From Paucidesulfovibrio gracilis DSM 16080 (GTDB lineage Bacteria > Desulfobacterota > Desulfovibrionia > Desulfovibrionales > Desulfovibrionaceae), in NCBI RefSeq assembly GCF_900167125.1, contig NZ_FUYC01000005.1:1-64000 (forward strand): a DNA stretch of 64,000 nucleotides, given 5' to 3'. Positions 35,658-56,489 of this stretch are shown piece by piece (position 1 is the stretch's first letter; each line of letters begins with the position of its first letter). The notes beneath the pieces were generated by a model. The model saw nothing but the letters and a program-made list of their open reading frames with translations, did not search any database and had not been told where the DNA came from. A program made the position numbers and the translations under genes.

Positions 35658-36323
35658 TCAGGAACGGCGACGCCACCGGCCCATGCCGAGCAGCCCTGCC
35701 AGCCCCGCGCCAAACATCCACACCGCCGCAGGCAACGGCGTGGGTGTGGTCAGGCTCAAGCGCACGAACATGCTCTCCTGTCCTGTGGGACCGGGATACT
35801 CGTCCAGCCCGATCCAGCGGGCCGAGTCGGAAATCCCCGCAACGCCGCTATTGCCGTTTCCTTTGAACCAGATGCTATTTCCGGATTCGCCGGTGAGCCA
35901 TGCGCCGCTGTTCAGGGCGTATTCCGTGGCCGCCCCCCAGGTGCCGGGTGTGCCGCCATTGTTGTTGGCCACTTCCCAAATCGAGGAGGTTTCAACGGTT
36001 CCCCAGGCATTGGAAATTTCCGCCAGGAACGCCATGGGGTTGTCATCGGCGCCCACGGCCCCGGTATTGTCCACCTGCCAGACGAACTGGTAGGTCGATC
36101 CCACGGCCATATCAAAACTCAGGCTCTGCGGCGTGGTCCAGTCTCCGGAACTCCCTTCATCCACGAAGCCGGGCACGCTTTGCAGCACGCCGCCGTCCAC
36201 GGAGTAGGAAAAATTCCTCAGACTGTTGTCAGCTGTATAGGTAATATTGAACGGCACTGCCAATGTCGTGGTAGTCATCGTCAACAAAAAAGCGATGGTC
36301 AAAAACAGGATGTGGCGTTTCAT
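35658..36323 (-). CDS. VPLPA-CTERM (PEP-CTERM-type) secreted protein
   Basis: This 221-residue protein has an N-terminal signal peptide (about 1-23) and a Ser/Gly/Asn-rich beta-type body. The C-terminal sorting signal has PLPA, a hydrophobic helix with AGLAGLLGMG and the basic end RWRRRS. This is the VPLPA variant of PEP-CTERM, recognised by exosortase and usually linked with exopolysaccharide export. No exosortase is in the window. The body resembles no enzyme I know. ATG 36323 was chosen over an upstream ATG because the signal peptide starts there. Confidence 0.88.
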   Translation of the reverse strand: MKRHILFLTIAFLLTMTTTTLAVPFNITYTADNSLRNFSYSVDGGVLQSVPGFVDEGSSGDWTTPQSLSFDMAVGSTYQFVWQVDNTGAVGADDNPMAFLAEISNAWGTVETSSIWEVANNNGGTPGTWGAATEYALNSGAWLTGESGNSIWFKGNGNSGVAGISDSARWIGLDEYPGPTGQESMFVRLSLTTPTPLPAAVWMFGAGLAGLLGMGRWRRRS

Positions 36324-36453
36324 GCGGATTCCCCCCAATATACCGGATAGTCTTTCAAGAGCGTACAGCATACCGGGAATCAGAGTATGCGCAAGCCTTC
36401 CCGAAAAAAGAGGGGATTCTCCCGGGAAAACCGGGAAACAAAATCACCGCTGA

Positions 36454-37935
36454 TCAATCCTCTTTCAAATCCATAGTGGCGCGCACCAGCCGGTTACGGC
36501 CCTGACGCTTGGCCGCGTAGAGCGCCTTATCCGCCCAGACGAACAATTCCGAAGCATTCTTAATGAGCGGCGAACCGGGCAGGGATTCGGGAACCGTGGC
36601 CGCCCCCAGGCTCACGGTCATGGGGATATTCTGGTCACCATGTTGCACCGGCGCATGGCCCACGGCCTCACGGATGCGCTCCCCCACAGCTGCGGCGCTG
36701 GCGGAATCCGTGCCGGGCAGGAGTACGGCGAATTCCTCGCCGCCGATGCGCGCAAGAACATCCCCCTCCCGCAGGCTTTCCCGACAAAATGTCGCAAATT
36801 GGTGCAGCATGGCGTCGCCCACCTGATGCCCCCAGGTGTCGTTTATGCCCTTGAAATGATCCAGGTCCATCAAGAGAAGGGACAGAGGATCATTCGAGGT
36901 CATGGCCTGATCAAAAAGATCCTGAATCTCCCGCATGAAGGTACGTCGATTGGCCGCGCCGGTGAGGGCGTCCGTCACGGCTTCCCGTTGCAACTTGTGT
37001 TCGGTGCGCTTGCGGTGCCGGATGTCCACGGCAATGCCGGACAACTCCACCGGGCGACCTTCCCCGTCCAGGGTCAGTTCGCCGATAAGCTCCACCCATA
37101 TGAAGCTGCCATCCTTGGCGCGCACGCGCACATCGCGCCGCAACCGCGTGGCCCCGTTCCCCAAACCAAAGCGCAACTCCTGAAGCAACCCGCGGCGATC
37201 CTGCGGATGCACCATGCGCAACGCCCCGAGCATGGAAAAATAACGTCCCTCCTCGGGGATGTCCCATCGGCCCGCCAGATTGCCCGCAAACCACAGCCGT
37301 CCGCGCCGCCAATCCAAGGCCCAGGTGGCGCTGTCCGTCAATCCTTGCAGGATATGAAACTGCCGCACACGCGCACTGAGCCTGTTTCGGGCAATGGCCC
37401 CGGCGATCAGCCCCGCAGCAGTGCGCAAGAGCGCCATTTCCGTTTCGGACCAGGAGTATTCCCGCTCGCAGTCGTCGAACCCCAAAACCCCCCACCACTC
37501 GCCGTCCACCATGATGGGCAGGGTAAGCATGGATAGGATTTTTTGCCGGGCCAAATTGCCGTGCAGCCAGGTTCCCTCGGGGAGCTGATTCACCATTACG
37601 GCCTGAACTTCGCCGCGCAATCGGCTTTGCACCAGGGTTTCGTACTCGGGATTGTCCCGAAAACTGCGGAACATGCTGAACATGGGCATGCCGATCTGCA
37701 CATGGCGCGGTGCCGCTGCCCACTCAAAGACATAATCCTGGAGCACGTATTCGTCGGTAAGTTCGATTTTCTGAAAAATCCACACCCGACTCACCCCCGT
37801 GACCTTCCCCAGGCCGGCAAGCAGGGTGTTCACCCCGTCTGGCCAGCCATCGGCATGGGACAGTTCTTCGGCTCCGCCAGCCACTGCCATGAGCAGGTCT
37901 GCGGAGGAAATGCGTCGGTAGGTTCCGTTCGCCAT
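36454..37935 (-). CDS. Diguanylate cyclase with GAF and PAS domains
   Basis: This 493-residue cytoplasmic protein has a GAF domain (about 15-180), a PAS domain with its C-terminal motif (about 200-315) and a GGDEF domain (about 330-490). The active site is GGEEF in RIGGEEFAVLLPG, so it should make cyclic di-GMP. An inhibitory site is intact: REGD five residues before GGEEF. Substrate residues are in LMDLDHFKGINDTWGH. The GAF domain probably senses a small molecule or redox state. CTGGAAGTGG precedes ATG 37935. It stands alone. Confidence 0.93.
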   Translation of the reverse strand: MANGTYRRISSADLLMAVAGGAEELSHADGWPDGVNTLLAGLGKVTGVSRVWIFQKIELTDEYVLQDYVFEWAAAPRHVQIGMPMFSMFRSFRDNPEYETLVQSRLRGEVQAVMVNQLPEGTWLHGNLARQKILSMLTLPIMVDGEWWGVLGFDDCEREYSWSETEMALLRTAAGLIAGAIARNRLSARVRQFHILQGLTDSATWALDWRRGRLWFAGNLAGRWDIPEEGRYFSMLGALRMVHPQDRRGLLQELRFGLGNGATRLRRDVRVRAKDGSFIWVELIGELTLDGEGRPVELSGIAVDIRHRKRTEHKLQREAVTDALTGAANRRTFMREIQDLFDQAMTSNDPLSLLLMDLDHFKGINDTWGHQVGDAMLHQFATFCRESLREGDVLARIGGEEFAVLLPGTDSASAAAVGERIREAVGHAPVQHGDQNIPMTVSLGAATVPESLPGSPLIKNASELFVWADKALYAAKRQGRNRLVRATMDLKED

Positions 37936-38044: not shown

Positions 38045-38989
38045 TCAGAACAACAAATCCTCATACTGCAATATACAGCTGACAACCTGGCCAGGCTCCA
38101 GATAGCGCGGTTGGAATCCAAGGCCCACCAGCCAGGGCAGTTGGTTCGCGTGCGCCGCGCAGTCCAGTGGGAGCCGCACAAAAACATTGGGAAGGTTTGC
38201 ATCCAGACCGGAGCGGACCGCTTCCCGCATCCCGGTCCCCGGCTCCCCGGAGAGGCCCGACAAAACCGTGACCCGGCCTATTTCCTGTTCCGCAATGCAG
38301 CCCCAGCCCACGGCAGAATCCGCCGGGTTCGGCCAATCCCGCAGGTCGTCCGGCTCGGCCGCGTCTTCCCGGGAACCAGGGACAACCATGTTCAGATCGC
38401 ACCGCCACCCGGTCTGCTCCAAAAAATGCTCCATGAAATGTTCCAGCACCGGATGGCACCACGCTTCCGGCAATGGATCAAGGCAAGGCCGCCAATAGCG
38501 GATCGTGCGCTCGGTGCGCCCTTGGTGCGGCGACTGCCAGGGCAACACAGCCAGCCGTTGCAGCAGAGCAAATTCCACTTCGGGACCGGCCGGATGGGTT
38601 CGGGCCAGTCCCACGCCAAGGGAACGCAGTTCGCTCGTAAGCGCCTGAAGCAGCAGCTCCCCGCAATCCTGGACCATGTTGCGATCAAGCCCCGGACACA
38701 AAGGACCACAGCACTCCGCCACGTTGTTGGCATCCACGGTCCACGTCACAACGCCGCACGGCCTGCCCTGCAACATGGCCACAAGCCATTGCGGTTCCGG
38801 CCGTGACCGGTCGCCGGAAGGACGCATCAGCCGCAGCAACGGTGCATGGCCGGACCCGGCGGAACAAACGGACTCCAGCAACGGCAGGCACTCCCGGAAC
38901 GTGGGAAAACGCACCACGTCAATGCCGGACACCCCAATGCCGTCCAATTCTTTTCCAGCGTTTACAGGCGATTCCGGGTGATTGGTCAT
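38045..38989 (-). CDS. Unknown protein at the end of a partner-switching operon (GNAT-like?)
   Basis: This 314-residue protein matches no family I can name with confidence. Its central region (about 60-140) has a strand-helix layout reminiscent of GNAT folds, with WLVAMLQGRPCGVVTWT and a long amphipathic helix around LLLQALTSELRSLG. It is rich in Cys (about ten) and Trp. It follows the anti-sigma-type kinase gene by seven bases and is therefore part of that operon. Related kinases can be paired with GNAT-like domains, which supports the tentative label. ATG 38989 is within the operon spacing. Confidence 0.7.
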   Translation of the reverse strand: MTNHPESPVNAGKELDGIGVSGIDVVRFPTFRECLPLLESVCSAGSGHAPLLRLMRPSGDRSRPEPQWLVAMLQGRPCGVVTWTVDANNVAECCGPLCPGLDRNMVQDCGELLLQALTSELRSLGVGLARTHPAGPEVEFALLQRLAVLPWQSPHQGRTERTIRYWRPCLDPLPEAWCHPVLEHFMEHFLEQTGWRCDLNMVVPGSREDAAEPDDLRDWPNPADSAVGWGCIAEQEIGRVTVLSGLSGEPGTGMREAVRSGLDANLPNVFVRLPLDCAAHANQLPWLVGLGFQPRYLEPGQVVSCILQYEDLLF

Positions 38990-38996
38990 GACGCGC

Positions 38997-39437
38997 CTAG
39001 AGGTCAAAGCAGGCCGTGAGCACATTGGCTCCCTGCTGCCGCGCATACTGGAGATGATCGGCCATTTCCACAGCCAGGAGAATTCCCAGCCCCCCAACGG
39101 GCCGTTCTTCCACTCCCAGAGCCACGTCCGGAGCCTCGCGCTGCAATGGATCAAAAGGAACGCCCCAATCCCGAACGCATACGCAAAACCGTTGTTTTCC
39201 GTCGGTCCCCGGCTCACGCAGACACGTCACTTCCACCAGCCCCTCGTGCGGTGCGCCGGGAGCCTGCGGCACGGCGTAGGCATAATGGCACACGTTCACC
39301 AGCAGTTCTTCAAGCACGAGCCGCAGACGCCCGCCCAATTCGCCGGGGGCGCCCAGCCGTTCGAACTGCCCGGCCGCGAAATCCAGCAGGGGTTCCAGGT
39401 TGTCCAGCTTCGCCTCAAGGCGCAACGCGTCCGCCAT
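38997..39437 (-). CDS. Anti-sigma-type serine kinase (RsbW/SpoIIAB-like ATPase)
   Basis: This 146-residue protein is a small HATPase-type kinase. The N box is LVLEELLVNVCHYAY, with the conserved Glu and Asn. VRDWGVPFDP is the G1 box, and GVEERPVGGLGILLA is the G2 region. In partner-switching systems it binds a target and phosphorylates the STAS antagonist encoded just upstream. There is no sigma factor gene nearby, so the target may be the unknown protein that follows. It starts five bases after the STAS gene. Confidence 0.88.
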   Translation of the reverse strand: MADALRLEAKLDNLEPLLDFAAGQFERLGAPGELGGRLRLVLEELLVNVCHYAYAVPQAPGAPHEGLVEVTCLREPGTDGKQRFCVCVRDWGVPFDPLQREAPDVALGVEERPVGGLGILLAVEMADHLQYARQQGANVLTACFDL

Positions 39438-39442
39438 GCGCG

Positions 39443-39772
39443 TTAGTCCTGCGCCGCTTCCTGGGCGGAATCAAACAGCTTGAACATGGCGGCAAAGCCT
39501 GAAACCGTAAACACGTCGCGCACCATGCCGTTGAGTCCGCAAAAACGAATCTCCCCGTTCACGCCGCGCAACTTCTTGGCCGAGGAAAGAATGCTCCGCA
39601 ACCCGGCCGAGCTGATGTATTCCACGCCGGAAAGGTCGGCCACCACATGGGTCTTGCCCTGGTCCATGATCTCGGTGCAGGCTTTTTCAAAATCCCCGGC
39701 CGTGACCGCGTCCATCCGTCCGCTCACGGCCAGCAACACATATTCTCCAACGGTTCCGGTCGTCCACTCCAT
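39443..39772 (-). CDS. Anti-anti-sigma-type STAS protein
   Basis: This 109-residue protein is a single STAS domain with DLSGVEYISSAGLRS at about 47-60. S55 (second Ser) is the likely phosphorylation site, matching the Ser of SpoIIAA. Phosphorylated by the kinase gene product and dephosphorylated by the SpoIIE-type phosphatase upstream, it would switch partners. AAGGAG precedes ATG 39772. Confidence 0.92.
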   Translation of the reverse strand: MEWTTGTVGEYVLLAVSGRMDAVTAGDFEKACTEIMDQGKTHVVADLSGVEYISSAGLRSILSSAKKLRGVNGEIRFCGLNGMVRDVFTVSGFAAMFKLFDSAQEAAQD

Positions 39773-39904
39773 TTGTTTCGCTCCTTGTTCAACGGAAGGC
39801 CGCGCCATCCGTTGTTGTTGCCTGGGGCATGCTCCCCCCGCCCGAATACGGGAGAAGCGGGTTCACCGGGTACTGTCCTGCCGGGCATGCCCGGACCAGA
39901 CGCA

Positions 39905-41848
39905 TCAGCGCCCGGACCCCTTATACTGCAATGCCAGCATGGTGATGTCGTCGGACTGGCTGGCGCCTCCCGTAAAATGCTTGATGGCCAGGTCCACTTC
40001 AGCCACCACGCGCTGCACACCGGTATCCTCCATGGAAGCGAGCAGTTCGCGAAGCCGCTCCTCACTGAACAGCCCCTGGTCATGGTCCATGGCTTCGGTG
40101 ACTCCGTCGGTGTAGAGGAACAACACATCCCCGGCCCGCAGGGTCATGCTTCGTTCGGTGTAGGTCATGCCGGGCATGGCTCCGGCCATAGGCTCGTTCA
40201 TCGGCGGCACCAGACGCGCCCGCCGATCCCGAAGCAGCATGGGCGGATTGTGGCCTGCATTGGCGTAGCGCACCTCGCCCGTATCAATGTCCAAAATGCC
40301 GAGAAACAGGGTCACGAACATGCAGGAATCGTTTTCCTCGGCCAGATCGTTATTGACCTTTTCCAAAATATCCGCCGGTCCGCCGCTTCGGGGAGCCACC
40401 GCCTTGAGCAGGGTCTTGGTCACGGCCATAAAAAAGGCCGCAGGCACGCCCTTGTCCGAAACATCGCCCACCAAAAAACAAAAATGCCGGTCGTCGATGA
40501 AAAAGAAATCGTACAGGTCGCCGCCCACGGCCTTGGCCGGTTCAATGGAAGCGAATACGTCGAATTCCTCATGTTCGGGAAATGCCGGAAACAGCTTGGG
40601 CAAAATGCCCATCTGGATGTCACGGGCAATGCGCAGCTCAGACTCGATACGTTCTTTTTGCGCCGTGGTTTCCCGCAATTCCCGCATATGCTGGCGCAGG
40701 CTTCCGCGCATGTGGTCAAAGGCCTCGGCCAGTTCGCCCACCTCGTCGCGCCGTGCCGGAGGCGGCACCGCCGCATCCAGATTGCCCCCCGCTATTTCCC
40801 GGGCCGCAGCGGAAAGCCGGCGCAAGGGCCGGGTGACTCCTCCTGCCGCCCAGAGCACGGCCCCTGCCAGCAGCAGAAAGCCCAGTGCCCCCATGAGCAA
40901 AAGATTGCGCGAAAGCGTGGTGGCCTTCTGCAATACCTCATCCCTGGGGAAAAGCATGCCCAGGGACCAGCCGCCCACATGCAGGGGCGTATAAAACAAA
41001 AAACTCTCCACCCCGCCCTTGACGCTGACCCGCTCCAGAAACGCGGTACCGCCTTCGGTCATGTCCCGCCCCACGTTCCACAATTCCGTGTCTCCCCGCT
41101 CCTCAGCCAGGGAAAAAATGGTGTGGTTGAGCATCAAAGCCTTCAGCGGATGGTGGATAAACGTGCCGTTGCGCGAAATGAGAAAGGTGTACCCCGTGTC
41201 ATAGAGCTTGGTTCCCCGGGCCATGCGCTGCATCCAGGACAAGGGGATGTCTGCGGTGACCACCCCGGCAAAACGACGCTGACCGTGATGCAGACGGTAA
41301 AACGGCGCGGCATAGGTGGTCATCATTACGCCGCCGCCCCCGCTGTCAAAGTACGGCTCGGTCCAGACCGGACCGTTCAATTCCCGCGGGAGCTGATACC
41401 AATCCTTGTAAAAATACCGATAATCCGGCCCGCCAAGCTCGGTGACCCGGACCCCGTTGTCGGTGCGGTGGCAATAGGGCGCAAAAAAGAGGCGGTCCTG
41501 ATCCATCCCGAACGGCTCGAACGCAATGGCCATGGCAAAGATGTCATCATTGCTCTGCACCACGCGCTGGGCCAGGGACGTGACCTCTCCGCTGGTGAGG
41601 GAGGCGTCCTCCAGAGCCAGGGCGATGTTGCGCACCACCTGCTCCACTGGCCGCAACTGGGCCGCAATGTGGTTAGCCACCTCGCGCCCGAGGGTCCGGC
41701 TGTTTTCCTCGGCCTGCTCCACGATGATCGCACGCGAAGCCATGTAGTTGTAGGCCAGGGCCGCGCCAAAAAGCAACGCGCAGACTCCCAATACGATCAT
41801 GGCCAGCCGGACGGCCAGACTGTGATGATCCAGACGTTTAGCGGGCAT
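39905..41848 (-). CDS. Membrane SpoIIE-type serine phosphatase with dCache sensor and HAMP
   Basis: This 647-residue protein has a membrane helix (about 14-35), a large periplasmic sensor of dCache type (about 40-315), a second helix (about 320-340) and a HAMP segment. The PP2C/SpoIIE phosphatase domain (about 410-647) carries the metal-binding residues in GGDLYDFFFI, VGDVSDKG and SDDITML. The dCache part contains FEPFGMDQDRLFFAPYC and RFAGVVTADIPLSWM, as in cache domains that bind amino acids or carboxylates. It should dephosphorylate the STAS protein on an external signal. ATG 41848 has AAGGGA; it overlaps the binding protein gene by 11 bases. Confidence 0.93.
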   Translation of the reverse strand: MPAKRLDHHSLAVRLAMIVLGVCALLFGAALAYNYMASRAIIVEQAEENSRTLGREVANHIAAQLRPVEQVVRNIALALEDASLTSGEVTSLAQRVVQSNDDIFAMAIAFEPFGMDQDRLFFAPYCHRTDNGVRVTELGGPDYRYFYKDWYQLPRELNGPVWTEPYFDSGGGGVMMTTYAAPFYRLHHGQRRFAGVVTADIPLSWMQRMARGTKLYDTGYTFLISRNGTFIHHPLKALMLNHTIFSLAEERGDTELWNVGRDMTEGGTAFLERVSVKGGVESFLFYTPLHVGGWSLGMLFPRDEVLQKATTLSRNLLLMGALGFLLLAGAVLWAAGGVTRPLRRLSAAAREIAGGNLDAAVPPPARRDEVGELAEAFDHMRGSLRQHMRELRETTAQKERIESELRIARDIQMGILPKLFPAFPEHEEFDVFASIEPAKAVGGDLYDFFFIDDRHFCFLVGDVSDKGVPAAFFMAVTKTLLKAVAPRSGGPADILEKVNNDLAEENDSCMFVTLFLGILDIDTGEVRYANAGHNPPMLLRDRRARLVPPMNEPMAGAMPGMTYTERSMTLRAGDVLFLYTDGVTEAMDHDQGLFSEERLRELLASMEDTGVQRVVAEVDLAIKHFTGGASQSDDITMLALQYKGSGR

Positions 41849-42857
41849 GGTCCGGTCCCTTGTAAAAATGCTCATACTGCGGCAAACGCCGGATCACCCC
41901 GGCTTCCAGGAGCTGCCCGGCCACCCGGCGGAACGTTGCGGGATTGAGCGACGGGTCCACCCGGGTCTCGCCCTTCGGGAGGATCACATCGCGCATACGC
42001 CGCAGCATCCAGCGCTGATGCACCCGCGTGACAGGCAATCCGGCCTCCCGCATGTGTTCCACGATAACGTCAAGGGTTTCCTCTTCGTGGGCAAAGGCGT
42101 ATTCCCAGCCTTCCCGCGTGGCGTCCACCACGGCGAGCGCCACCTCGGGACGCTGCTCTGCTGTGGAGCGCAGGCAGTAGACGCCATCCTCGGGAAAATC
42201 ATACTCGGTATCCCGGAAAAAGATGGGTTGCAGTTCCTCCTCCCGCAATCCAGCGGAAAGCAGGGTATGGTATTCATTATACCACATGACCGTGGTGGCA
42301 TGGACCGCACCGCGCAAAAACAGGTCCATGGACGACCCCAGCGGCACGATCTCAGGGCGCACGCCCAAGCTGCGAAACAGGGCGCGGGGCTGGATTTGAA
42401 ATTCGTTGGCCCACATGGAAACCTTGCGGCCGTGCAGGTCCGCTGCGGTGCGGATGCCCTGGCCCCGGCGCGCCACCAGCATCAGGGCCGAATGCCGCAC
42501 GAACTGGCCCACGTTGACCAGAGGCATGCCCGAATCCCAGCGTTCCAACGCCGTGGAAAGAAACATGGTACAAAAATCCGTGTCCCGGGAATCCAGCCAG
42601 TCCGAGGCCACCCGGTCCGGCCCGCCGGGAATCAGGCGCATGTCCAGCCCGCGTTGTTCGTACATGCCCTTCTTCTCGGCCATGTAAAAACCGGCGAATT
42701 GGGCCTGCGGCGACCATTGCAGCATCAGGGAAACCCGTTCAAGCCGCTTTTGCCCGGCCCGGGCAGGAACATACGACAGGCAAACAGCCGCCGTCAGAAT
42801 CAGCAGCCAGGCCGGGACCATCCAAACAGACGCGGTGCCGTGCGGTCTGCCTTGCAT
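41838..42857 (-). CDS. NMT1/THI5-like periplasmic binding protein
   Basis: This 339-residue protein has a signal peptide (about 1-34) and a type II binding fold of the NMT1 group: LQWSPQAQFAGFYMAEKKGM near the mature start, DFCTMFLSTALERW, and ADLHGRKVSMW. NMT1-type proteins bind pyrimidine or aromatic/sulfonate-like ligands for ABC transport. Here no permease or ATPase is near and the gene overlaps the membrane phosphatase gene, so it is more likely a sensor input than a transport component. GGAGGTAAGGGA precedes ATG 42857, four bases after the rhodanese stop. Confidence 0.9.
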   Translation of the reverse strand: MQGRPHGTASVWMVPAWLLILTAAVCLSYVPARAGQKRLERVSLMLQWSPQAQFAGFYMAEKKGMYEQRGLDMRLIPGGPDRVASDWLDSRDTDFCTMFLSTALERWDSGMPLVNVGQFVRHSALMLVARRGQGIRTAADLHGRKVSMWANEFQIQPRALFRSLGVRPEIVPLGSSMDLFLRGAVHATTVMWYNEYHTLLSAGLREEELQPIFFRDTEYDFPEDGVYCLRSTAEQRPEVALAVVDATREGWEYAFAHEEETLDVIVEHMREAGLPVTRVHQRWMLRRMRDVILPKGETRVDPSLNPATFRRVAGQLLEAGVIRRLPQYEHFYKGPDHAR

Positions 42858-42861
42858 TCCC

Positions 42862-44022
42862 TTACCTCCCCACGGCCTTTTCAAATTCATGCACCCGCGA
42901 CATCCAGACCTTGCCTTCCATCTCGCCCCGCCAGGCCAGCCGGGGATTCACACGGTAGACCAGGGAACCGTTCACCCGGGTATAGAGCAGCCAGCCGCTT
43001 CGTGCCAGCCGATCCGAGGCCTCGAACAACGCCCCCTCGTCCACACCCAGCCGGATCATGGTCTCGGAACGCACCAGCAGGGCGTAATTGTCGAAACGCA
43101 ACCGCGCCGCCACATACAGCAACAACCGCCGGTCCAACTCCTGAATTTGTCGATCCTTCAACAACCGCAACATATTGTGCTGGCTAAAGGACACGGACGA
43201 CGTCCCCACATCCACAAGGCGGGTCTTGGCGCTGCGGCCCAGGGATTCCACTCCGCCGTCCAGGAAATAATAATCCGTATATCCATTGGCTTGCAGGAAA
43301 TATTGCAGCCAACGGGTCTGGCCGCCGTCCGCATCGAAAATAAGCAGTCGCCGCTCCACCCAGACCCGGTTGGTCACGGCCTGCAGCAACGACTCCATGG
43401 GGATGTTGCGCACGTCGCGCAGGCGCGGTTCCCGCTCCCGGTGGTAGATGTCCCGAATATCCACCACCAGCGCGCCCGGCTCGTAGGAAAGCCGCTCAAA
43501 TTCGTCATAGGCAAGCAAATGGCGACGATACAGGGCCGGAGAAATAACCCGCTCCAGGCTGGCCGGGGAATTGCCCATAAGCGTGGCCTTGTCCGGTGCG
43601 GCCGCGATCCAGGCGAACACGCCCGCGTCATAGACGTAGACGTTTTCCCAGCCTTGGTTCACGGCCTCCTGAGCCACCCGAAAGGCCCGGGAGCAGGCCG
43701 GATCATTGCAATAGAACACCAATGGCGAGGATGCGTCGCGGGCGCGGATGCGTTCCACCACGGCCAGGGGACGGCCATGGGCGATGGGCGCGTTCACGGC
43801 TTTGTTGATGCGCGCCACCTCGTATTCAAACTCGGAACGCACATCCACGATCACGGCGCGGGGATATATTTTCAGCAGGGTTTCGGAATCCACCACGGAC
43901 ACGGCGGGATAAAACGGACGCAGGGGGAAATCGTCCTGACCCTGTGCCACACCCGGCAGCAGCATCAATACGACGCACATCAGTCCCCAGAATCTTCCGG
44001 GCCGTCCCTTTCCTATTGCCAT
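42862..44022 (-). CDS. Periplasmic protein with two rhodanese domains
   Basis: This 386-residue protein has a signal peptide (about 1-29) and two rhodanese-like domains. The first (about 45-140) has VDVRSEFEYEVARI and an active-site Cys in YCNDPACSRA. The second (about 170-270) has VVDIRDIYHRERE but no evident catalytic Cys. A C-terminal part (about 290-386) is unassigned. Rhodaneses transfer sulfane sulfur. It is the first gene of the operon encoding the NMT1-type protein and partner-switching system. ATG 44022 was chosen because the signal peptide starts there. Confidence 0.88.
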   Translation of the reverse strand: MAIGKGRPGRFWGLMCVVLMLLPGVAQGQDDFPLRPFYPAVSVVDSETLLKIYPRAVIVDVRSEFEYEVARINKAVNAPIAHGRPLAVVERIRARDASSPLVFYCNDPACSRAFRVAQEAVNQGWENVYVYDAGVFAWIAAAPDKATLMGNSPASLERVISPALYRRHLLAYDEFERLSYEPGALVVDIRDIYHREREPRLRDVRNIPMESLLQAVTNRVWVERRLLIFDADGGQTRWLQYFLQANGYTDYYFLDGGVESLGRSAKTRLVDVGTSSVSFSQHNMLRLLKDRQIQELDRRLLLYVAARLRFDNYALLVRSETMIRLGVDEGALFEASDRLARSGWLLYTRVNGSLVYRVNPRLAWRGEMEGKVWMSRVHEFEKAVGR

Positions 44023-44220: not shown

Positions 44221-45132
44221 CTATCCATTGTCGGACTCGGCAAAGCCGAAGTCGTCCTGGTGGGTGTCCAGGTACCCGTTCAACACGTCCAGGCCGATGA
44301 GCGGCTCGCTGGAGAGGGCCAGGGGATGCACTGTCGTGCGGCGGAAGATGTCGTGCCCTTCGTCCCAGACGCTTTCCGGCGTGACCTTGTTCATGAGCAC
44401 GCCGGCAAGGGGGATCTCCATCTCGTCCAGGCTGGTGCAGATGCGTCCGGCCTCGGCAAAGGAAAGCCGGTCCGGGTTGACCACCAGGTGGATATGGCAA
44501 CGCTCCCCGCTGCGGAACAAATCACGCAGCTCCGTAAAAAACACACGCTGTTTGTCCAGCCGGGAGCTGATCTTGTCACATTCGATCTCACACGCGCCCA
44601 TGTGAATCTTGGTGATGATCTTCTTTTTCTCCATGATCTCCTTGCGCAGAGCCAGGAGCTGTTCCAGCCAGACCAGGGAAAGAGCGGGCAGGTTGAAAAA
44701 TTTCATGGTCAGGGCCGTGGGCGGCATGTCGTAGACGATGATGTCCGGCCCGGGATTTTTATCGCGGTAATGCTTGAAGGCCAGGAGCAAGGCGTATTCT
44801 TCCAGGCCGGGGGAATGCTTGATCACATTCAGGCGGTCGCCAAGGTTGAAGGCCGCGTGATAGGTGTAGGTGCGGCGCACCTGATCCTCAATGCCGCGCA
44901 GGTACTCCCGAATCCAATCGTCAATGTCGGCCTGGGCCACGCGCAGCCGGTCGGCCACGGCAATGGGCTTGGCCCCGAATTCCATATCGAAAATGTCGGA
45001 CTGGTTGTGGGCCGGGTCCAGAGAAACCAGGAGCACCTCGCGTCCGGACCGGGCCAGCTGCATGGCCGTGAGCGACGATGTGGTGGATTTGCCCACCCCT
45101 CCCTTTCCAGCATGAAAATAATAGCGTTGCAT
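44221..45132 (-). CDS. ArsA/Get3-type ATPase
   Basis: This 303-residue protein is a P-loop ATPase of the ArsA/Get3 group: AGKGGVGKSTTS (8-19) is the deviant Walker A and LDPAHNQSD (38-46) the switch I region. A later DMPPTALTMKF marks switch II, and LVVNPDRLSF is the typical downstream element. It has one ATPase domain, as in Get3, and Cys in GACEIEC. No arsenite genes are near. Instead it follows a 4-TM protein and a 96-residue protein in one operon. GGGAGTG precedes ATG 45132. It may drive insertion or release of a membrane protein, or ion export with its partners; the substrate is unknown. Confidence 0.9.
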   Translation of the reverse strand: MQRYYFHAGKGGVGKSTTSSLTAMQLARSGREVLLVSLDPAHNQSDIFDMEFGAKPIAVADRLRVAQADIDDWIREYLRGIEDQVRRTYTYHAAFNLGDRLNVIKHSPGLEEYALLLAFKHYRDKNPGPDIIVYDMPPTALTMKFFNLPALSLVWLEQLLALRKEIMEKKKIITKIHMGACEIECDKISSRLDKQRVFFTELRDLFRSGERCHIHLVVNPDRLSFAEAGRICTSLDEMEIPLAGVLMNKVTPESVWDEGHDIFRRTTVHPLALSSEPLIGLDVLNGYLDTHQDDFGFAESDNG

Positions 45133-45179
45133 AATCGGTTCACTCCCTGATCCACGACATGATCACCGCGGGCCGCCTG

Positions 45180-45470
45180 TCAGAGCACGTCAAACATGGA
45201 AAACAAATCCGCCAGCGGATCCTGGGCCGTACAAGCCCGGTTCGCCATGAGCGTCAATTCTTTTTCCATTTCGGGCAGCAATTCCAAAGAAATATACATG
45301 GGCGGCGCCTGAATGCCCACAAAGGATCCCAGCACCAACAGGCTGAAGATGTTTTCCAGTTCCCGGGTCTCCCACTCCAGCCGATCCGTGGCCTGGTGGC
45401 GATGGACCTCCTCGGCCAGCTTCCAGCCCCGGCGGAGCTTGTCCAGCAGATTTCGCAACAGGTCGTTCAT
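45180..45470 (-). CDS. Small protein between the 4-TM protein and the ArsA-type ATPase
   Basis: This 96-residue protein is mostly helical and has no signal peptide. Its middle is hydrophobic (FSLLVLGSFVGIQAPPMYIS), which may be a membrane or amphipathic helix. I do not recognise the family. ATG 45470 overlaps the stop of the 4-TM gene (ATGA), and the ATPase gene follows 47 bases later. This points to a three-protein assembly. Confidence 0.75.
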   Translation of the reverse strand: MNDLLRNLLDKLRRGWKLAEEVHRHQATDRLEWETRELENIFSLLVLGSFVGIQAPPMYISLELLPEMEKELTLMANRACTAQDPLADLFSMFDVL

Positions 45471-45949
45471 GCGGACTCCCGCCCCACGCGGAACAGGCGC
45501 ATCTCGTGCGTGACGCGCTCCCGCGACGGGAAATAATAGTAGGCCGCATAGAGCGCGGCCAGGGTGGCTCCGGCAAAATGAAACAGGCTCACCCCAAGCA
45601 GGTAGCCCAAGGCCGCGACCCAGGTGGCGGGCAGGGCCGTGTTCAGCAAATTTTTCTCGAACGCCAGAAAATCCGGCGTATCCACGCTGCGGGCTTCGGC
45701 CACGCGCCCCACGAAACGCACACGCATCCACAAGGGAGAAGCCAGCGCCAGGACCACGGCAACGATCAACACCGCAGGGCCGGCCACATCCAAAGGAATC
45801 ATGTCCACGGGCTGGGCCTGAAAGAAACGCAGCACCAACCCCAGCAGGGCCAGGGCCGCGGCAGGAACCAGCAAGACGAAGTAATGGCGGAGCAGATTCC
45901 CCCGCAGCTGTTCCAAAAGCTCCACTCGGGTATCGACAGTCTGGGGCAT
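45467..45949 (-). CDS. Four-TM membrane protein of an ArsA-linked operon
   Basis: This 160-residue protein has four membrane helices (about 22-42, 55-75, 103-121 and 123-140) and a basic end, MRLFRVGRESA. No catalytic motif is seen. It is the first gene of the putative three-gene set with the ATPase. ATG 45949 was preferred to ATG 45967 by spacing from AAAGAGC. A perfect 11-bp hairpin lies just upstream, after the CstA-family gene. Confidence 0.78.
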   Translation of the reverse strand: MPQTVDTRVELLEQLRGNLLRHYFVLLVPAAALALLGLVLRFFQAQPVDMIPLDVAGPAVLIVAVVLALASPLWMRVRFVGRVAEARSVDTPDFLAFEKNLLNTALPATWVAALGYLLGVSLFHFAGATLAALYAAYYYFPSRERVTHEMRLFRVGRESA

Positions 45950-45968
45950 GCTCTTTCCTTCATTCAAG

Positions 45969-45995
45969 CCCCGGCCGGGACAAACCCGGCCGGGG
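45969..45995 (-). other. Intercistronic hairpin after the CstA-family gene
   Basis: CCCCGGCCGGG (45969-45979) and CCCGGCCGGGG (45985-45995) form a perfect 11-bp stem with loop ACAAA, 26 bases after the CstA stop at 46021. No T-tract follows on the minus strand, so it may stabilise the upstream mRNA end or terminate weakly. Confidence 0.6.
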
Positions 45996-46020
45996 ACAGG
46001 ATGTTTCGTTGTACGGACCG

Positions 46021-47760
46021 CTAGCCGGCGTCGCGCATGGCTTCAGAGCCATCGGTCTTGAAGAACCGGACCAATCCCTCAAGGATGACCCAGATGGACA
46101 CGCCGAGCACCAGCATGTTCAAGGTCATCAGCAGCATGTTGTCCTTGGCCGCGTAGATGCCCTGGTTGATGAAGATGGCCCAGATGGTCATGGAGGCCAG
46201 GAACAGGGCCGGAAGACCGGAGATGAGCCAGGCCAGGCCGCCGCGCCGCTTCAGGTACACGGTGACCGTGGTGAGCACCAGGGCCGCGAGAATCTGGTTC
46301 ACGCAACCGAACAGGGGCCACAGCGCCAGAGCGCCCTTGCCGTTGGCACCGGAGCTGAAGGCCAGGCAACCGGCCAGGAACACGGCCACGGCAGTGGAGA
46401 AGAACTTGTTGTTGAACAGGCCGCTGAGCGGTGTGGAGCTGAACAGCTCGGTCAGCGCGTACCGCTCGATGCGGGTGGCCGTATCCATGGTGGTTCCGGC
46501 GAAGGAAGCCACGAACACGCCCATGATGGCCAGGGCCACGTTATGCGGCAGGCCAATGGTTTCGATCATGTTGGCAGCGCCGACCACAAAGGCCGCCACC
46601 TTGGAACCGAGACCAGCGGCCGCGGCCCAGGAGGAGTAGTGCGTGGTCCAGGCGGCCAGACCGGTGAGGGCCGCGCCGTCCTTGGTGGTGTAGCCCAGGC
46701 CGATGCCCGCGGCCACGGCCACGATGACCAGGGTGGAGAGGGTCGCTTCGGTGAGCATGCCGCCGTATCCCACGAACAGGGAGTCCTCTTCACTACGCAC
46801 CTGCTTGGAGGTGGTGCCGGAGGAAACCAGGGAGTGGAAGCCGGAGATGGCGCCGCAGGCGATGGTGATAAACAGGAACGGGATCATGGACGGAGCGCCG
46901 TCCGGATGCGCCTGCACCGCCGGGGCTACCATTTCCAGACCGCCGGAGCTGAACGAAGCCGCAAACACGCCCACGACCATAAGGGCCAGGGCCACCACCA
47001 GCTGGTGGGAGTTGATGAAGTCACGCGGCTGGAGCAGCAGGGTCACGGGCAGGGTCGAGGCGATAAAGGCGTAGGCCAGCAGCACCAGGGTCCAGGTTCC
47101 GGTGGCGGGCATGCCACCGATGGTGGGCAGGTCAATGGGCACGTAGGTGCCGATGACCACCGTGACGTACATGAGAATCAGTGCGCCGATGGACCAGGTC
47201 AGGCTGTTCACGCCCTTCTTGTAGATCATGTAGCCGAGACCCATGGCGATGGGCACTTCCAGCCACACCGGGAGCACGGACGCGGGGTACATGTGGAAGA
47301 TCACGGCAATGACCAGACCGAAGATGGCGGTGATGATCAGCAGATCAAGGAAGACCACCACAAAGAAGAAAATCTTGGTGCGCGGGCTGATGTACTTGGC
47401 CGTGAATTCGGATACGGACTTGCCCTGGTTGCGCATGGACAGGATCAGCGCGCCGAAGTCGTGCACCGCACCCATGATGATGCTGCCGAAGAAGATCCAG
47501 ATCATGGCCGGCAGCCAGCCCCAAATGACCGCGATGGCCGGACCCACGATGGGACCGGTACCCGCGATGGACGTAAAATGGTGACCGAAGATGATTTCTT
47601 TTTTCGTTGGTACGAAGTCGTAGCCGTCCTCAAATTCCACGGACGGGGCTTTGGTGTCGCCGGAAAGGGCGAAAATCTTTTTCCCAATGTACCGACCATA
47701 GAGCCGGTACATGATCAGATAGCCAAAAAATGCGATCAGCATCATGAACAAGGCGTCCAT
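46021..47760 (-). CDS. cstA: CstA-family carbon starvation/pyruvate transporter
   Basis: This 579-residue protein has about sixteen membrane helices and CstA family motifs: GHHFTSIAGTGPIVGPAIAV near residue 60, and MDTATRIERY and NKFFSTAVAV later. E. coli members CstA and BtsT import pyruvate (and peptides for CstA). BtsT is induced by the BtsS/BtsR system, a LytS/LytTR pair like the one encoded a few kilobases upstream. Pyruvate uptake is therefore a reasonable guess. GGAGGGA precedes ATG 47760. The start was set at MDALFMM because it begins the first helix. Confidence 0.95.
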   Translation of the reverse strand: MDALFMMLIAFFGYLIMYRLYGRYIGKKIFALSGDTKAPSVEFEDGYDFVPTKKEIIFGHHFTSIAGTGPIVGPAIAVIWGWLPAMIWIFFGSIIMGAVHDFGALILSMRNQGKSVSEFTAKYISPRTKIFFFVVVFLDLLIITAIFGLVIAVIFHMYPASVLPVWLEVPIAMGLGYMIYKKGVNSLTWSIGALILMYVTVVIGTYVPIDLPTIGGMPATGTWTLVLLAYAFIASTLPVTLLLQPRDFINSHQLVVALALMVVGVFAASFSSGGLEMVAPAVQAHPDGAPSMIPFLFITIACGAISGFHSLVSSGTTSKQVRSEEDSLFVGYGGMLTEATLSTLVIVAVAAGIGLGYTTKDGAALTGLAAWTTHYSSWAAAAGLGSKVAAFVVGAANMIETIGLPHNVALAIMGVFVASFAGTTMDTATRIERYALTELFSSTPLSGLFNNKFFSTAVAVFLAGCLAFSSGANGKGALALWPLFGCVNQILAALVLTTVTVYLKRRGGLAWLISGLPALFLASMTIWAIFINQGIYAAKDNMLLMTLNMLVLGVSIWVILEGLVRFFKTDGSEAMRDAG

Positions 47761-48050
47761 ACACGTCCCTCCACTTTGGTTTTGCATTGCGTCCGGACCC
47801 GCGGCCGCCATGCGGGCTGGCCGCCCCTCCCGGTCCGGATGTTGCCCACGATCTATGCATGATCCCGAGCATCATTCAATATGAAGTGGAGAAATTGCAT
47901 TTTTGCGGAACGAATGGTCGATACGACAGCTTGAAATGCAGCCGTGCAACAGGGTGGAATACTGCTGGGCGCGGCCGCACCGTTATCGCATCTTGCGATC
48001 CCGCATCCCGTAGCATGTGCATCCGTTCGGGAACAACCGCCCGTCGCGGC
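47761..48050 (-). other. Upstream region of the CstA-family gene
   Basis: This 290-base spacer holds no gene. On the minus strand, ACCATTC (plus 47912-47918) resembles one half of a BtsR/LytTR-type site, ACC[AG]TTC. I see no second half at the usual spacing, so the site is only suggestive. Confidence 0.3.
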
Positions 48051-53841: not shown

Positions 53842-54717
53842 TCACTTCTCTTGCGCGGGCGCGCCGATCCGCCCGGAATATCCGATTTCCAGTCGTTCCC
53901 GGCGGGACAACGAACGTTTTTTCGGAGAAAACAGCGTGGCCAGAATGAACAGCACCGTGGAGACCAGCACGATGACCGCGCCGGACGGCACGTCCAGCCA
54001 ATAGGAACAGGTCAGCCCGATCCAGCAGGAGGCCACCCCGAACAGCGCGGCCAGCACAAAGATGCGTTTAAGATCGTAGGAGAGCTGATAGGCGGCCGCC
54101 GCCGGATTGATGACCAGACTGTAGATCAACAGCCCGCCGATGCTGCGGAGCGAAGCGGTCACGGTCAGGCCCGTGCAGATCAGCATGACGTAATAGACCG
54201 CTGTGGCGGGAATGCCCACGGCCAACGCCGCGCTCCGATGGCAGAGCACAGCCCGGACCTCCTTGAAAAACAGCACCAGCCCTGTCAGCAGCAGGCCACA
54301 GACCACGCCCATGAGCGCCAGATCCATCCGTTCCACCGTAAGGATGCTGCCCCAAAAAAGGTTCAGGGCGCTGGTGCGCGCCCCGGTCATCAGCCCGAGG
54401 AACAAAAAAGCCAGCCCGAGCATGGCGGAAAACACGATGCCCACCACGGTTTCCGGGGCAAAATCCGCACGGTCGGACAATGGACCGATCAGTCCGGCCG
54501 CGGCAATGCTGAAGCCAAAGGCCAGGGGCAGCCAGTCCACGCCGAGCAGAATGCCCAGCAAGGCGCCGGCAAACGCGGCGTGGGCCATGCATGTACCGAT
54601 GGCCGTAATACGCATGGTGACCACCAGCACTCCGGTGACCGCGCAGGAAGCGCCGCCCAGCAGCCCGGCCAGATATGCCTTCTGCATAAATCCGTAACTC
54701 AAAAATCCCCAGTCCAT
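53842..54717 (-). CDS. ABC-3 family metal permease
   Basis: This 291-residue protein is an integral membrane permease of the ZnuB/MntB group, with about eight helices and family blocks such as VTMRITAIGTCMAHAAFAGA and GGLLIYSLVINPAA. It moves a divalent metal or metal complex across the inner membrane with the ATPase encoded upstream. It lies 25 bases from the ATPase gene. Confidence 0.92.
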   Translation of the reverse strand: MDWGFLSYGFMQKAYLAGLLGGASCAVTGVLVVTMRITAIGTCMAHAAFAGALLGILLGVDWLPLAFGFSIAAAGLIGPLSDRADFAPETVVGIVFSAMLGLAFLFLGLMTGARTSALNLFWGSILTVERMDLALMGVVCGLLLTGLVLFFKEVRAVLCHRSAALAVGIPATAVYYVMLICTGLTVTASLRSIGGLLIYSLVINPAAAAYQLSYDLKRIFVLAALFGVASCWIGLTCSYWLDVPSGAVIVLVSTVLFILATLFSPKKRSLSRRERLEIGYSGRIGAPAQEK

Positions 54718-54742
54718 GCCCGTCCTCCCTGTTTGATCCGGC

Positions 54743-55609
54743 TCAGTACACCAGGTGCGTGCGGCCGCCGTCCTCGATCACGCGGATACGTGTTCCGTAC
54801 AGCTCACTGAGCATTTCCGGGTCCGCCATGGCCCGGGGCGTATCCACACGCACGAGCCGCCCGTCCTTCATGCTGGCGATGCGCGTGCACACGTCGGGCA
54901 GGGTGTTCAGATCATGGGTGACGATCAGGCTGGTGAGACCGAACCGCTCGTGCACGGTACGGATCAATTCGAGAATGCCCCGCTGGGCCTGCCAGTCCAG
55001 GGAGGCCGTGGGTTCGTCGAGCAGCAGGATCTCCGGCCGCTGGAGCAGGGCGCGGGCAATGGCGGCCCGTTGCCGTTCCCCGCCCGAAAGATGGCCGAGG
55101 GGACGATGCTCCAAACCCGAAAGCCCCACCAACTGCATAAATTCCTCGGCCTTGCGCCGCTCCGAAGCCGGTACACGCCGCAGCAGCCCAAGCCGTCCGT
55201 AGCATCCCGTGAGCACGCTCTCGGTCACGGTCATGGGCAGAAGCGGGTCAAATTCCTGCAACTGGGCCACGTACCCGATGCGGCGGCGCAAATGGCGGGC
55301 CGTGCGCCCGGTCACGGGAATTCCGAGCACCTCGACCCGCCCGGCCACAATGCGGCCAAGTCCGTTCAGCACGGTCAGAAGGGTGGTCTTACCCGCGCCG
55401 TTCGGACCAATCACACCGAGAAATTCACCACGCCGCAGACGGAGGCTCACCCCACGCATGGCCACATGTCGCCCGTAGGCGGCAGCCACGTCCTCCAAAA
55501 TCAAAACCGGGGAATCCTCCCCTACTTCGGCAACGCTTCCGCCGCCTGGCTGCACATGCCGCATGGCCACTCCCGTGTGTGGTGTCCGGCCCGCTTGACG
55601 GACCAGCAT
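54743..55609 (-). CDS. ABC transporter ATPase of the ZnuC/MntA group
   Basis: This 288-residue protein has Walker A GPNGAGKTT, signature LSGGERQR, Walker B LLLDEPTAS and the switch His in LIVTHDLN. Its first 35 residues precede the usual start and may not be translated; ATG 55564 has a GGGAG site, while ATG 55609 lies just after the binding protein gene. It pairs with the downstream permease. Substrate is set by the binding protein, which is unusual. Confidence 0.92.
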   Translation of the reverse strand: MLVRQAGRTPHTGVAMRHVQPGGGSVAEVGEDSPVLILEDVAAAYGRHVAMRGVSLRLRRGEFLGVIGPNGAGKTTLLTVLNGLGRIVAGRVEVLGIPVTGRTARHLRRRIGYVAQLQEFDPLLPMTVTESVLTGCYGRLGLLRRVPASERRKAEEFMQLVGLSGLEHRPLGHLSGGERQRAAIARALLQRPEILLLDEPTASLDWQAQRGILELIRTVHERFGLTSLIVTHDLNTLPDVCTRIASMKDGRLVRVDTPRAMADPEMLSELYGTRIRVIEDGGRTHLVY

Positions 55610-55613
55610 GATT

Positions 55614-56489
55614 CTATTCGCCGTTGTGTTGCAATGCCCGGATCATCCGGTCGATATTGCCCGTGAACACGGCTTCCCATTGATCCTCGCCAGGAACGCC
55701 GCCCGGAAATGAACTCAGGTCGGCCCGGCCCGCGCCCAGGGATTCGGCCAGCCCCCGCCCGGCTCCAGGACCGCTTTGAATGTTGTCCAACACGGCCCGG
55801 ACCCGGTGTTCCCGGCCCAGATTCAACAGGCGTTCAAAACATTCCGGGGTCAAATCCTCGGGTCGGCCATAGGTTCCGACCACACGCAATCCAGCCCAGT
55901 CCGCCAGCGGCTCCTGCAGGGCGGAACAGAGCACGGCCGGAGCATCGGCAGCGGCTTTTCCTGGATGCAGGCCCAGCGCGGCCAGGCGACGCTGCTCCCG
56001 ATCACCCACAGCCCGAATCCGTTCAATGCGCCGGTCGGCAGCGCCGCGAATCGCGGTTGCCTCCCCTGGCCAACGCGAAGCGAGCCGATCCGCCAAAAAC
56101 AGGGTGAGCCGTTCCTGAGCCTTGGGCAACAGGGCGCAGGTCTCTTCCGGCAGGTTCAGCAACTCCAGCTCGGGATTTGCCGCAGCCCGAACCAAATTAC
56201 GCATGTTGGGCATATCTTTTTGAAAATATTCCAGAACCAACAGGTCGGCCTGACCCAAAAACCGCAGATCCCCGGGCCGCAGGTCGTAATGCCCCGGACA
56301 GGAACCGCCCGGAATGAGCAGGCGCACCTGGAGCCGGTCGCCGCCCAGGTCCGTAAGGATGTCGGCCACGGTACTGGTTCCGGCCAGGGCGCAGGGCCGT
56401 TCCCCGGCCATGGCCTGGGAGGGTGTCCAGGCTGAAAGGAGCAGGACGCCGAGCGTCAACGTGAGAAAACGGAAGATACTACGACTCAT
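55614..56489 (-). CDS. Metal-type (cluster A-I) binding protein lacking the usual His ligands
   Basis: This 291-residue protein has a signal peptide (about 1-28) and a fold like ZnuA, with STVADILTDLGGDRLQVRLL near the start and a long helix in the middle. Zinc and manganese members use three His and an Asp/Glu. Here GSCPGHYDLRPGDL keeps one His but the second and third His are missing, and Cys occurs at several places. The ligand may be a metal chelate rather than a bare ion. ATG 56489 overlaps the stop of the methyltransferase gene upstream (ATGA). Confidence 0.85.
   Translation of the reverse strand: MSRSIFRFLTLTLGVLLLSAWTPSQAMAGERPCALAGTSTVADILTDLGGDRLQVRLLIPGGSCPGHYDLRPGDLRFLGQADLLVLEYFQKDMPNMRNLVRAAANPELELLNLPEETCALLPKAQERLTLFLADRLASRWPGEATAIRGAADRRIERIRAVGDREQRRLAALGLHPGKAAADAPAVLCSALQEPLADWAGLRVVGTYGRPEDLTPECFERLLNLGREHRVRAVLDNIQSGPGAGRGLAESLGAGRADLSSFPGGVPGEDQWEAVFTGNIDRMIRALQHNGE

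Follow-up and report, generated by a model that had tools for sequence, protein, structure and literature searches.

What does a partner-switching system sense, and what does it act on, when its genes lie beside a periplasmic binding protein and away from any sigma factor? The question is raised by six genes at positions 38,045 to 44,022 of a 64,000-nucleotide (nt) stretch of Paucidesulfovibrio gracilis DSM 16080 (contig NZ_FUYC01000005.1, here C5, positions 1 to 64,000; hereafter the window), which belongs to a 3.18-Mb genome that is 99.85% complete. From comparisons of sequence and gene order, we consider it probable that these genes specify a ligand-gated partner switch, that its effector in relatives is a fusion of an RsbW-fold domain with a GNAT-fold region, and that the sixth gene is a decaying part of that effector in this species.

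All six genes lie on the minus strand where the preliminary description had placed them, and five are unambiguous by Pfam. In order of transcription, the unit and the next gene are:

44022–42862, minus strand: two-domain rhodanese, probably exported (PF00581, two stretches, E 3.6e-21)
42890–41838, minus strand: NMT1/THI5-type periplasmic binding protein (PF09084, E 2.2e-29; 103.4 bits against a cut-off of 20.5)
41848–39905, minus strand: dCache–HAMP–SpoIIE (PPM) phosphatase, a membrane sensor (PF07228 SpoIIE, E 1.7e-48; MCP-like PDC, 3e-27; HAMP, 1.1e-17)
39772–39443, minus strand: STAS protein of RsbV type (PF01740, E 9.7e-20; TIGR00377, ant_ant_sig, above cut-off)
39437–38997, minus strand: RsbW-type HATPase_c_2 kinase (PF13581, E 9.6e-19)
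38989–38045, minus strand: sixth protein, 314 amino acids (aa), probable remnant of a GNAT-like part (homology to fusion proteins)
37935–36454, minus strand: GAF–PAS–GGDEF diguanylate cyclase (domain search), beginning 109 nt beyond the sixth gene

Packing is tight at every junction except that between phosphatase and STAS (distances read from the sequence: −29, −11, +132, +5 and +7 nt, the first of which depends on the NMT1 start chosen).

A conserved binding protein–phosphatase pair

Genome contigs were scanned with twelve aligned NMT1 proteins, and at least 566 relatives were confirmed. The counts below concern 80 named loci, the best 80 of the 566, all of which are near the query and do not yield whole-family figures. 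Part of these loci come from genomes that are also in our sample of the order, and many are metagenome-assembled genomes (MAGs), whose titles may misname the organism. Genes were called with a hexamer-based caller, which leaves starts and short genes approximate; the NMT1 gene of L066 was overlooked by this caller and detected by tblastn.

The phosphatase gene is the next gene, on the same strand, after the NMT1 gene in 78 of the 80 named loci, and the remaining two (L217 and L241) end at a contig end. The two frames overlap in 67 of the 78, most commonly by 14 or 4 nt. By record title, the loci belong to Desulfobacterota groups, Omnitrophota, Planctomycetota, Acidobacteria, Verrucomicrobia, Lentisphaerae, Kiritimatiellaeota and others. 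We recognised no description of this NMT1–SpoIIE pairing in the titles and abstracts of the open-licence literature.

The observation that the binding protein has no adjacent transporter held up: the gene list and a domain search gave no ATP-binding cassette (ABC) permease or ATPase genes in the cluster, and an ABC-ATPase-like gene, judged by motifs, lies within three genes of the pair in 2 of the 80 loci. In the same order, five long frames that we examined have an NMT1 domain fused to proteins of histidine-kinase type (four) or to a GGDEF protein (one). Because the pairing is conserved, ABC-ATPase genes are rare and NMT1 domains occur fused to kinase and GGDEF proteins, the comparison supports a sensory role for the binding protein; we take the NMT1-type protein and the dCache–HAMP–SpoIIE phosphatase, judged by their gene order, to be the core of the unit. 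The NMT1 family mostly serves importers, and the two genes might be neighbours only through a shared transported substrate, with the binding protein an orphan ABC component; permease-like genes two genes away in L205 and L220 (identified by eye) would fit such an arrangement. The two genes are tightly paired, and mostly overlap, in all 78 loci that can be read, and ABC-ATPase-like genes are scarce; both facts argue against this arrangement, which we regard as highly improbable.

Separately, proteins of metallo-beta-lactamase fold are encoded around the pair in 10 of the 80 loci (for example, L192, L199, L202, L206, L224 and L252), several of which are titled Syntrophorhabdus or Syntrophorhabdaceae.

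A probable switch without a dedicated sigma factor

The STAS protein and the kinase retain the residues expected of a partner switch. Ser55 of the STAS protein is present in 52 of 52 aligned sequences and Ser54 in 51 of 52, which makes Ser54/55 the candidate phosphorylation site; the ATP-site residues N48, D90, G92, G116 and G118 of the kinase are found in all 40 aligned kinases, its own sequence included. Domains, motifs and the conserved gene pairing thus bear out the proposal that this is a real signalling unit with a partner switch.

We found no cognate sigma factor in the switch cluster. At Sigma70_r2 E 0.001 the genome has three sigma genes, on contigs C3, C17 and C9 and none on C5, so that the absence of a nearby sigma factor was correctly noted; on reading their sequences, they are RpoD-, RpoH- and FliA-like, and none is of SigB or SigF type. 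Because only these three were found, a sigma-factor output appears unlikely. A classical RsbW-type anti-sigma system that acts on one of the genome's sigma factors would be consistent with the expected motifs in the STAS protein and the kinase, and a very divergent sigma factor could escape the threshold; given the three factors recovered, we consider this quite unlikely. The locus is likely to encode a ligand-gated partner switch to which no sigma factor is dedicated.

Pseudokinase–GNAT fusions in relatives

A different type of output is suggested by proteins of about 435 aa in relatives, in which an RsbW-fold domain is followed by a GNAT-fold region. An alignment-based search found such fusions in 56 of 199 genomes of the order and 33 of 297 of the phylum, counts that both include the window's own remnant and, for the phylum, also a few fragments. 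The first 140 residues match HATPase_c_2 in the three fusions tested (E 4e-6, 1e-4 and 3e-3). Against the sequences of the Protein Data Bank (PDB), the fusion profile reached at best E 0.65, to RsbW, and a fold search was needed. In a model of the fusion of Desulfogranum marinum (DSM 2058, L235; predicted local distance difference test (pLDDT) 85.6), residues 10–141 match RsbW/SpoIIAB (Z 14.5–16) and residues 156–305 match GNATs (Z about 12–13.6), and in the last third the elements are arranged in a GNAT-like manner, as judged by eye. When kinases and fusions are aligned together, the N-box Asn and the G1 Asp are absent from 47 of 47 fusions and present in 40 of 40 kinases; paired Glu residues are retained in 46 of the 47. 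On the model and the alignment, the fusion very likely joins an ATP-dead RsbW-fold domain to a GNAT-fold region.

The genes that accompany the fusion suggest a pathway. Among 40 fusion loci chosen by hand (20 from the order and 20 from the phylum, out of the 56 and 33 genomes), a HisC-like gene directly follows the fusion on the same strand in 39, with L161 as the exception. Xanthine-dehydrogenase-type large subunits occur in 21 of the 40, as does a second GNAT-like protein of about 340 aa, here termed GN340. The HisC-like protein of L057 scores 278 against the hisC cut-off of 276.6. For the L074 large subunit, the nearest family is pucD, with a score below the pucD cut-off. A Pfam GNAT match above cut-off was obtained for one of three GN340 proteins tested. 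GN340 and the fusion are relatives: the GN340 profile matches the fusion of L136 (whole-protein E 5e-8, best stretch 4e-7) and none of the other fusions at E 1e-5. The motif [RQ]xxGx[GA], which we take to be the GNAT acetyl-CoA loop, occurs somewhere in the C-terminal part of 14 of 50 fusions and in 13 of 30 GN340 proteins.

The fusion and the binding protein are linked in several genomes. In L190 and L233 the genes run in one direction in the order fusion, HisC, large subunit, iron–sulfur (FeS) and FAD genes, one or two further genes, GN340, STAS, kinase, NMT1 and phosphatase (the fusion of L233 is clipped by the start of the locus); in L251 the order is STAS, kinase, NMT1, phosphatase, fusion, HisC, GN340, large subunit, FeS and FAD. 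In five more loci (L183, L195, L179, L182 and L218) the majority of these genes are present, but the series is broken or changes strand. Across the whole flanks of the 80 NMT1 loci, a fusion was found in 11, a large subunit in 12 and GN340 in 9. Within the order, the fusion occurs in 31 of 54 genomes with an NMT1 protein and in 24 of 145 without (Fisher test, with an NMT1 cut of E 1e-70 that we set ourselves and with relatedness ignored).

In L179, L182, L218 and L075, an AMP-forming ligase and an acyl-carrier protein are encoded beside GN340 and the molybdenum enzyme; the ligase of L075 is of the benzoate-CoA-ligase family. At L146:8510-11998, a GN340 domain is part of a 1163-aa frame, the N-terminal part of which resembles an AMP-forming ligase by eye.

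The sixth gene is probably a remnant

In the window, the preliminary description had proposed the sixth gene, with a possible GNAT fold, as a candidate output. The protein matches no Pfam or NCBIfam family, GNAT included, at E 1. In the alignment search it is itself a row of the query, which inflates its score; a single-sequence search of 150 genomes of the order provides an independent test and returned two weak relatives besides itself, the better of which is the C-terminal part of the 443-aa fusion of the sister species (E 4.9e-8). The suggested GNAT fold is thus upheld through homologues, by the fold matches of the fusion, and not by a family match of the protein's own.

The protein is without the RsbW-like domain of its family and retains 26 of 71 conserved positions of the GNAT part, whereas 50 fusions retain at least 45 (median 63), figures that are high by construction as the positions were defined on the same 50. 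Among eight genes compared, its gene scores lowest for coding (0.227 per codon, against 0.54–1.15 for the others). The usual partners are also missing. Besides the fusion and its HisC, the sister genome encodes two GN340 relatives and a large subunit that shares 77% identity with the L074 protein; in the window genome, the best matches to HisC and to the large subunit are 35% and 32% identical, and no GN340 is found at E 1e-4. Because the RsbW-like domain is lost, few conserved positions are kept and the partner genes are missing, the sixth protein is unlikely to be a working output in this species, and we set it aside as the present one; the comparison does support a GNAT-type last gene with a real evolutionary connection to the switch. 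Sequence comparison indicates that the protein is probably a remnant left after pathway loss, and the gene should not be read as the output.

It might instead be a neofunctionalised stand-alone GNAT-like effector of the kinase. The frame is unbroken and starts 7 nt from the kinase gene, its score is still coding-like (other frames reach at most −0.346 per codon) and some family positions (W.HP, GF.P and a G) are kept. The same losses that point to a remnant, together with the weakest coding score of the eight genes, make this alternative somewhat unlikely.

Rhodanese, gene order and the ligand

The rhodanese has a signal-like N terminus (read from the sequence), a first domain with a CNDPAC loop, a second domain with FDADGGQ and no Cys (read from the alignment) and a C-terminal region of about 110 aa. 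Rhodanese relatives occur in 17 of the 199 genomes of the order; full-length ones adjoin the NMT1 gene in all 15 genomes that have one (own genome included), two of the window genus and 13 of one other genus, and the two further matches are shorter and not beside an NMT1 gene. Five of the named loci have a rhodanese relative: four carry the title Pseudodesulfovibrio, and the fifth, in a Desulfobulbaceae MAG, has a partial copy. The rhodanese therefore appears to be a largely lineage-specific periplasmic addition. A RepL-like winged helix had been suspected at its C terminus; Pfam matches are weak and below cut-off (PaaX 0.09, Sigma54_CBD 0.01), and in a fold search with a low-confidence model (pLDDT 61.5) the 50 matches listed are rhodanese-type entries. 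The order of helices and strands is suggestive of a winged helix there, which is unproven.

Conservation does not extend to the exact order of all six genes; five of them keep their order in the window genus and one other genus. The sister species has, in this order, rhodanese, NMT1, phosphatase, STAS, kinase, a sodium/phosphate (Na/Pi) cotransporter, the fusion, a HisC-like aminotransferase and a diguanylate cyclase. The STAS–kinase pair lies directly upstream of NMT1 in 15 of the 80 named loci and directly downstream of the phosphatase in 14.

A sulfur or pyrimidine-like ligand had been suggested. Because the rhodanese is largely lineage-specific, sulfur is not a common theme, and with relatives in only 17 of 199 genomes and 5 of 80 loci we reject sulfur sensing as a general one. 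Relatives have a xanthine-dehydrogenase-type neighbour, and PDB relatives of the binding protein are 4nmy, 3ix1 and THI5, the solved relatives including a pyrimidine-binding protein. For these reasons an N-heterocycle is weakly favoured over sulfur. In the dCache domain, position 148 (the equivalent of PctA R126, where dCache_1AA amino-acid sensors have a positively charged residue, mapped by spacing to a Trp that we take to correspond to PctA W128) is K here and mostly W, M, L or Q among 74 aligned sequences; this charged position is not kept among them, and the aromatic and Asp positions are.

Proposed mechanism

We hypothesize that the dCache domain responds to the binding protein in its ligand-loaded state, or else to the ligand directly; that this input would alter the activity of the SpoIIE phosphatase and so set the share of STAS protein that is unphosphorylated at Ser54/55; and that the STAS protein would swap between the kinase and an effector. 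Ligand contact, the phosphorylation cycle and docking of the STAS protein on a dead kinase domain are steps that we infer. In relatives the likely effector is the fusion, whose RsbW-fold domain, having lost its ATP-site residues, could be a dock for the STAS protein, and which would control a pathway of a HisC-like aminotransferase, a xanthine-dehydrogenase-type enzyme and the second GNAT. Because this pathway is absent from the window species and the sixth gene is probably decaying, the switch here may now act on something else (the diguanylate cyclase or a distant target) or be losing its output.

Several observations weigh against this scheme. Near the pair, within a few neighbouring genes and with some loci clipped by contig ends, a STAS gene is found in 49 of the 80 named loci, a kinase gene in 40, both in 37 and neither in 28. 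Of 20 regions fetched from the order, most picked for a rhodanese match, 19 have the pair, and STAS and kinase lie behind the phosphatase in only 10 (in one, a kinase domain is fused to the phosphatase). The switch is therefore optional or encoded elsewhere. The fusion and the binding protein are often apart, with the binding protein present in 31 of 55 genomes of the order that have the fusion, and only two fusions in the 80 loci score with the kinase profile (E 7e-5 and 1e-4). Finally, the unbroken 314-codon frame of the sixth gene, so close behind the kinase gene, may still be made into protein.

The output could instead be the cyclase at 36454–37935, which unphosphorylated STAS protein would bind and activate, by analogy with HsbA and HsbD or SiaC and SiaD of Pseudomonas. 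Both species of the genus have a GAF–PAS–GGDEF gene after the unit (66% identity), a GGDEF-type gene (34%) lies 776 nt behind HisC in L235, and cyclase outputs reached through a STAS protein or SiaC are described in PMC7647112. In the sister species, however, the cyclase gene is separated from the unit by the Na/Pi transporter, fusion and HisC genes; here a promoter-like site (38002–37973) precedes the cyclase gene, although the promoter scan of the window gave no excess over shuffles; and a GGDEF gene near the pair is uncommon among the matches listed. We judge control of the cyclase to be improbable.

Returning to the fusion as effector, we tentatively suggest that the circuit is new and that it occurs in Desulfobacterota families and some other lineages. 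In such a circuit, a binding protein would gate a SpoIIE phosphatase, the STAS protein would dock on an ATP-dead RsbW–GNAT fusion (its GNAT part possibly tandem), a molybdenum-hydroxylase/aminotransferase pathway would be controlled post-translationally, and the pseudokinase would replace the sigma factor as third partner. Since distant genomes have the fusion clustered with the aminotransferase, the molybdenum enzyme and a GNAT, both ligand and output can be tested.

Other features of the window

The gap between phosphatase and STAS (39773–39904; 132 nt, about 19 nt in the sister species) is GC-rich and has a palindrome, with a folding z of −1.9; the palindrome does not recur above chance within the window. 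A terminator scan of the window gave 14 sites against 10.3 in shuffles (standard deviation 3.3).

Upstream of the unit, an ArsA/Get3-type ATPase, two small proteins and a CstA-like carrier are encoded at 44221–47811 (minus strand), in an order that is kept in the sister species (77–90% identity over three genes compared). The protein of 35658–36371 (minus strand) ends in PLPAAVWMFGAGLAGLLGMGRWRRRS, a tail that is presumably a PEP-CTERM motif; a gene with a similar start is found in the sister species (L057:18203-18871). About 10 kb from the unit, three genes at 53842–56489 (minus strand) resemble a metal ABC importer (permease, ATPase and binding protein) by eye.

Comparison with known systems

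Among the closest counterparts are RsbU–RsbV–RsbW and SpoIIE–SpoIIAA–SpoIIAB of Bacillus, which likewise have a PPM phosphatase, a STAS protein with a conserved Ser and an RsbW-type kinase with a full ATP site. Unlike these, the present cluster has no sigma factor, its phosphatase is a transmembrane dCache–HAMP protein paired with a binding protein, and relatives add the dead-kinase/GNAT-like protein.

SiaABCD of Pseudomonas aeruginosa resembles the unit in its PP2C phosphatase, kinase, antagonist-like protein and nearby diguanylate cyclase (PMC7647112). The scores fall well short, at 87.6 bits against a SiaA cut-off of 700 and 153.2 bits against a SiaD cut-off of 290, and the antagonist here is a STAS protein with ant_ant_sig above cut-off. 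Neither 'solute-binding' nor 'periplasmic' appears in that paper's main text.

Binding-protein genes beside transmembrane receptor genes are also described in PMC11113362 and PMC9602780. The receptors that the latter names as activated by binding proteins are chemoreceptors, sensor kinases, cyclases/phosphodiesterases and Ser/Thr kinases; a SpoIIE phosphatase, the receptor here, is not named among them in the passages considered. If our reading is true, phosphatases would join the receptor types that are driven by binding proteins.

Finally, BtrUVW, RbaVW and HmpUVW (PMC8256260), as well as SypA/SypE, are switches with an unknown output or one other than a cognate sigma factor; in the passages and abstracts considered, no binding protein, rhodanese or GNAT partner is mentioned. 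In the system proposed here, partner switching would gain a plainly metabolic output by way of a dead kinase.

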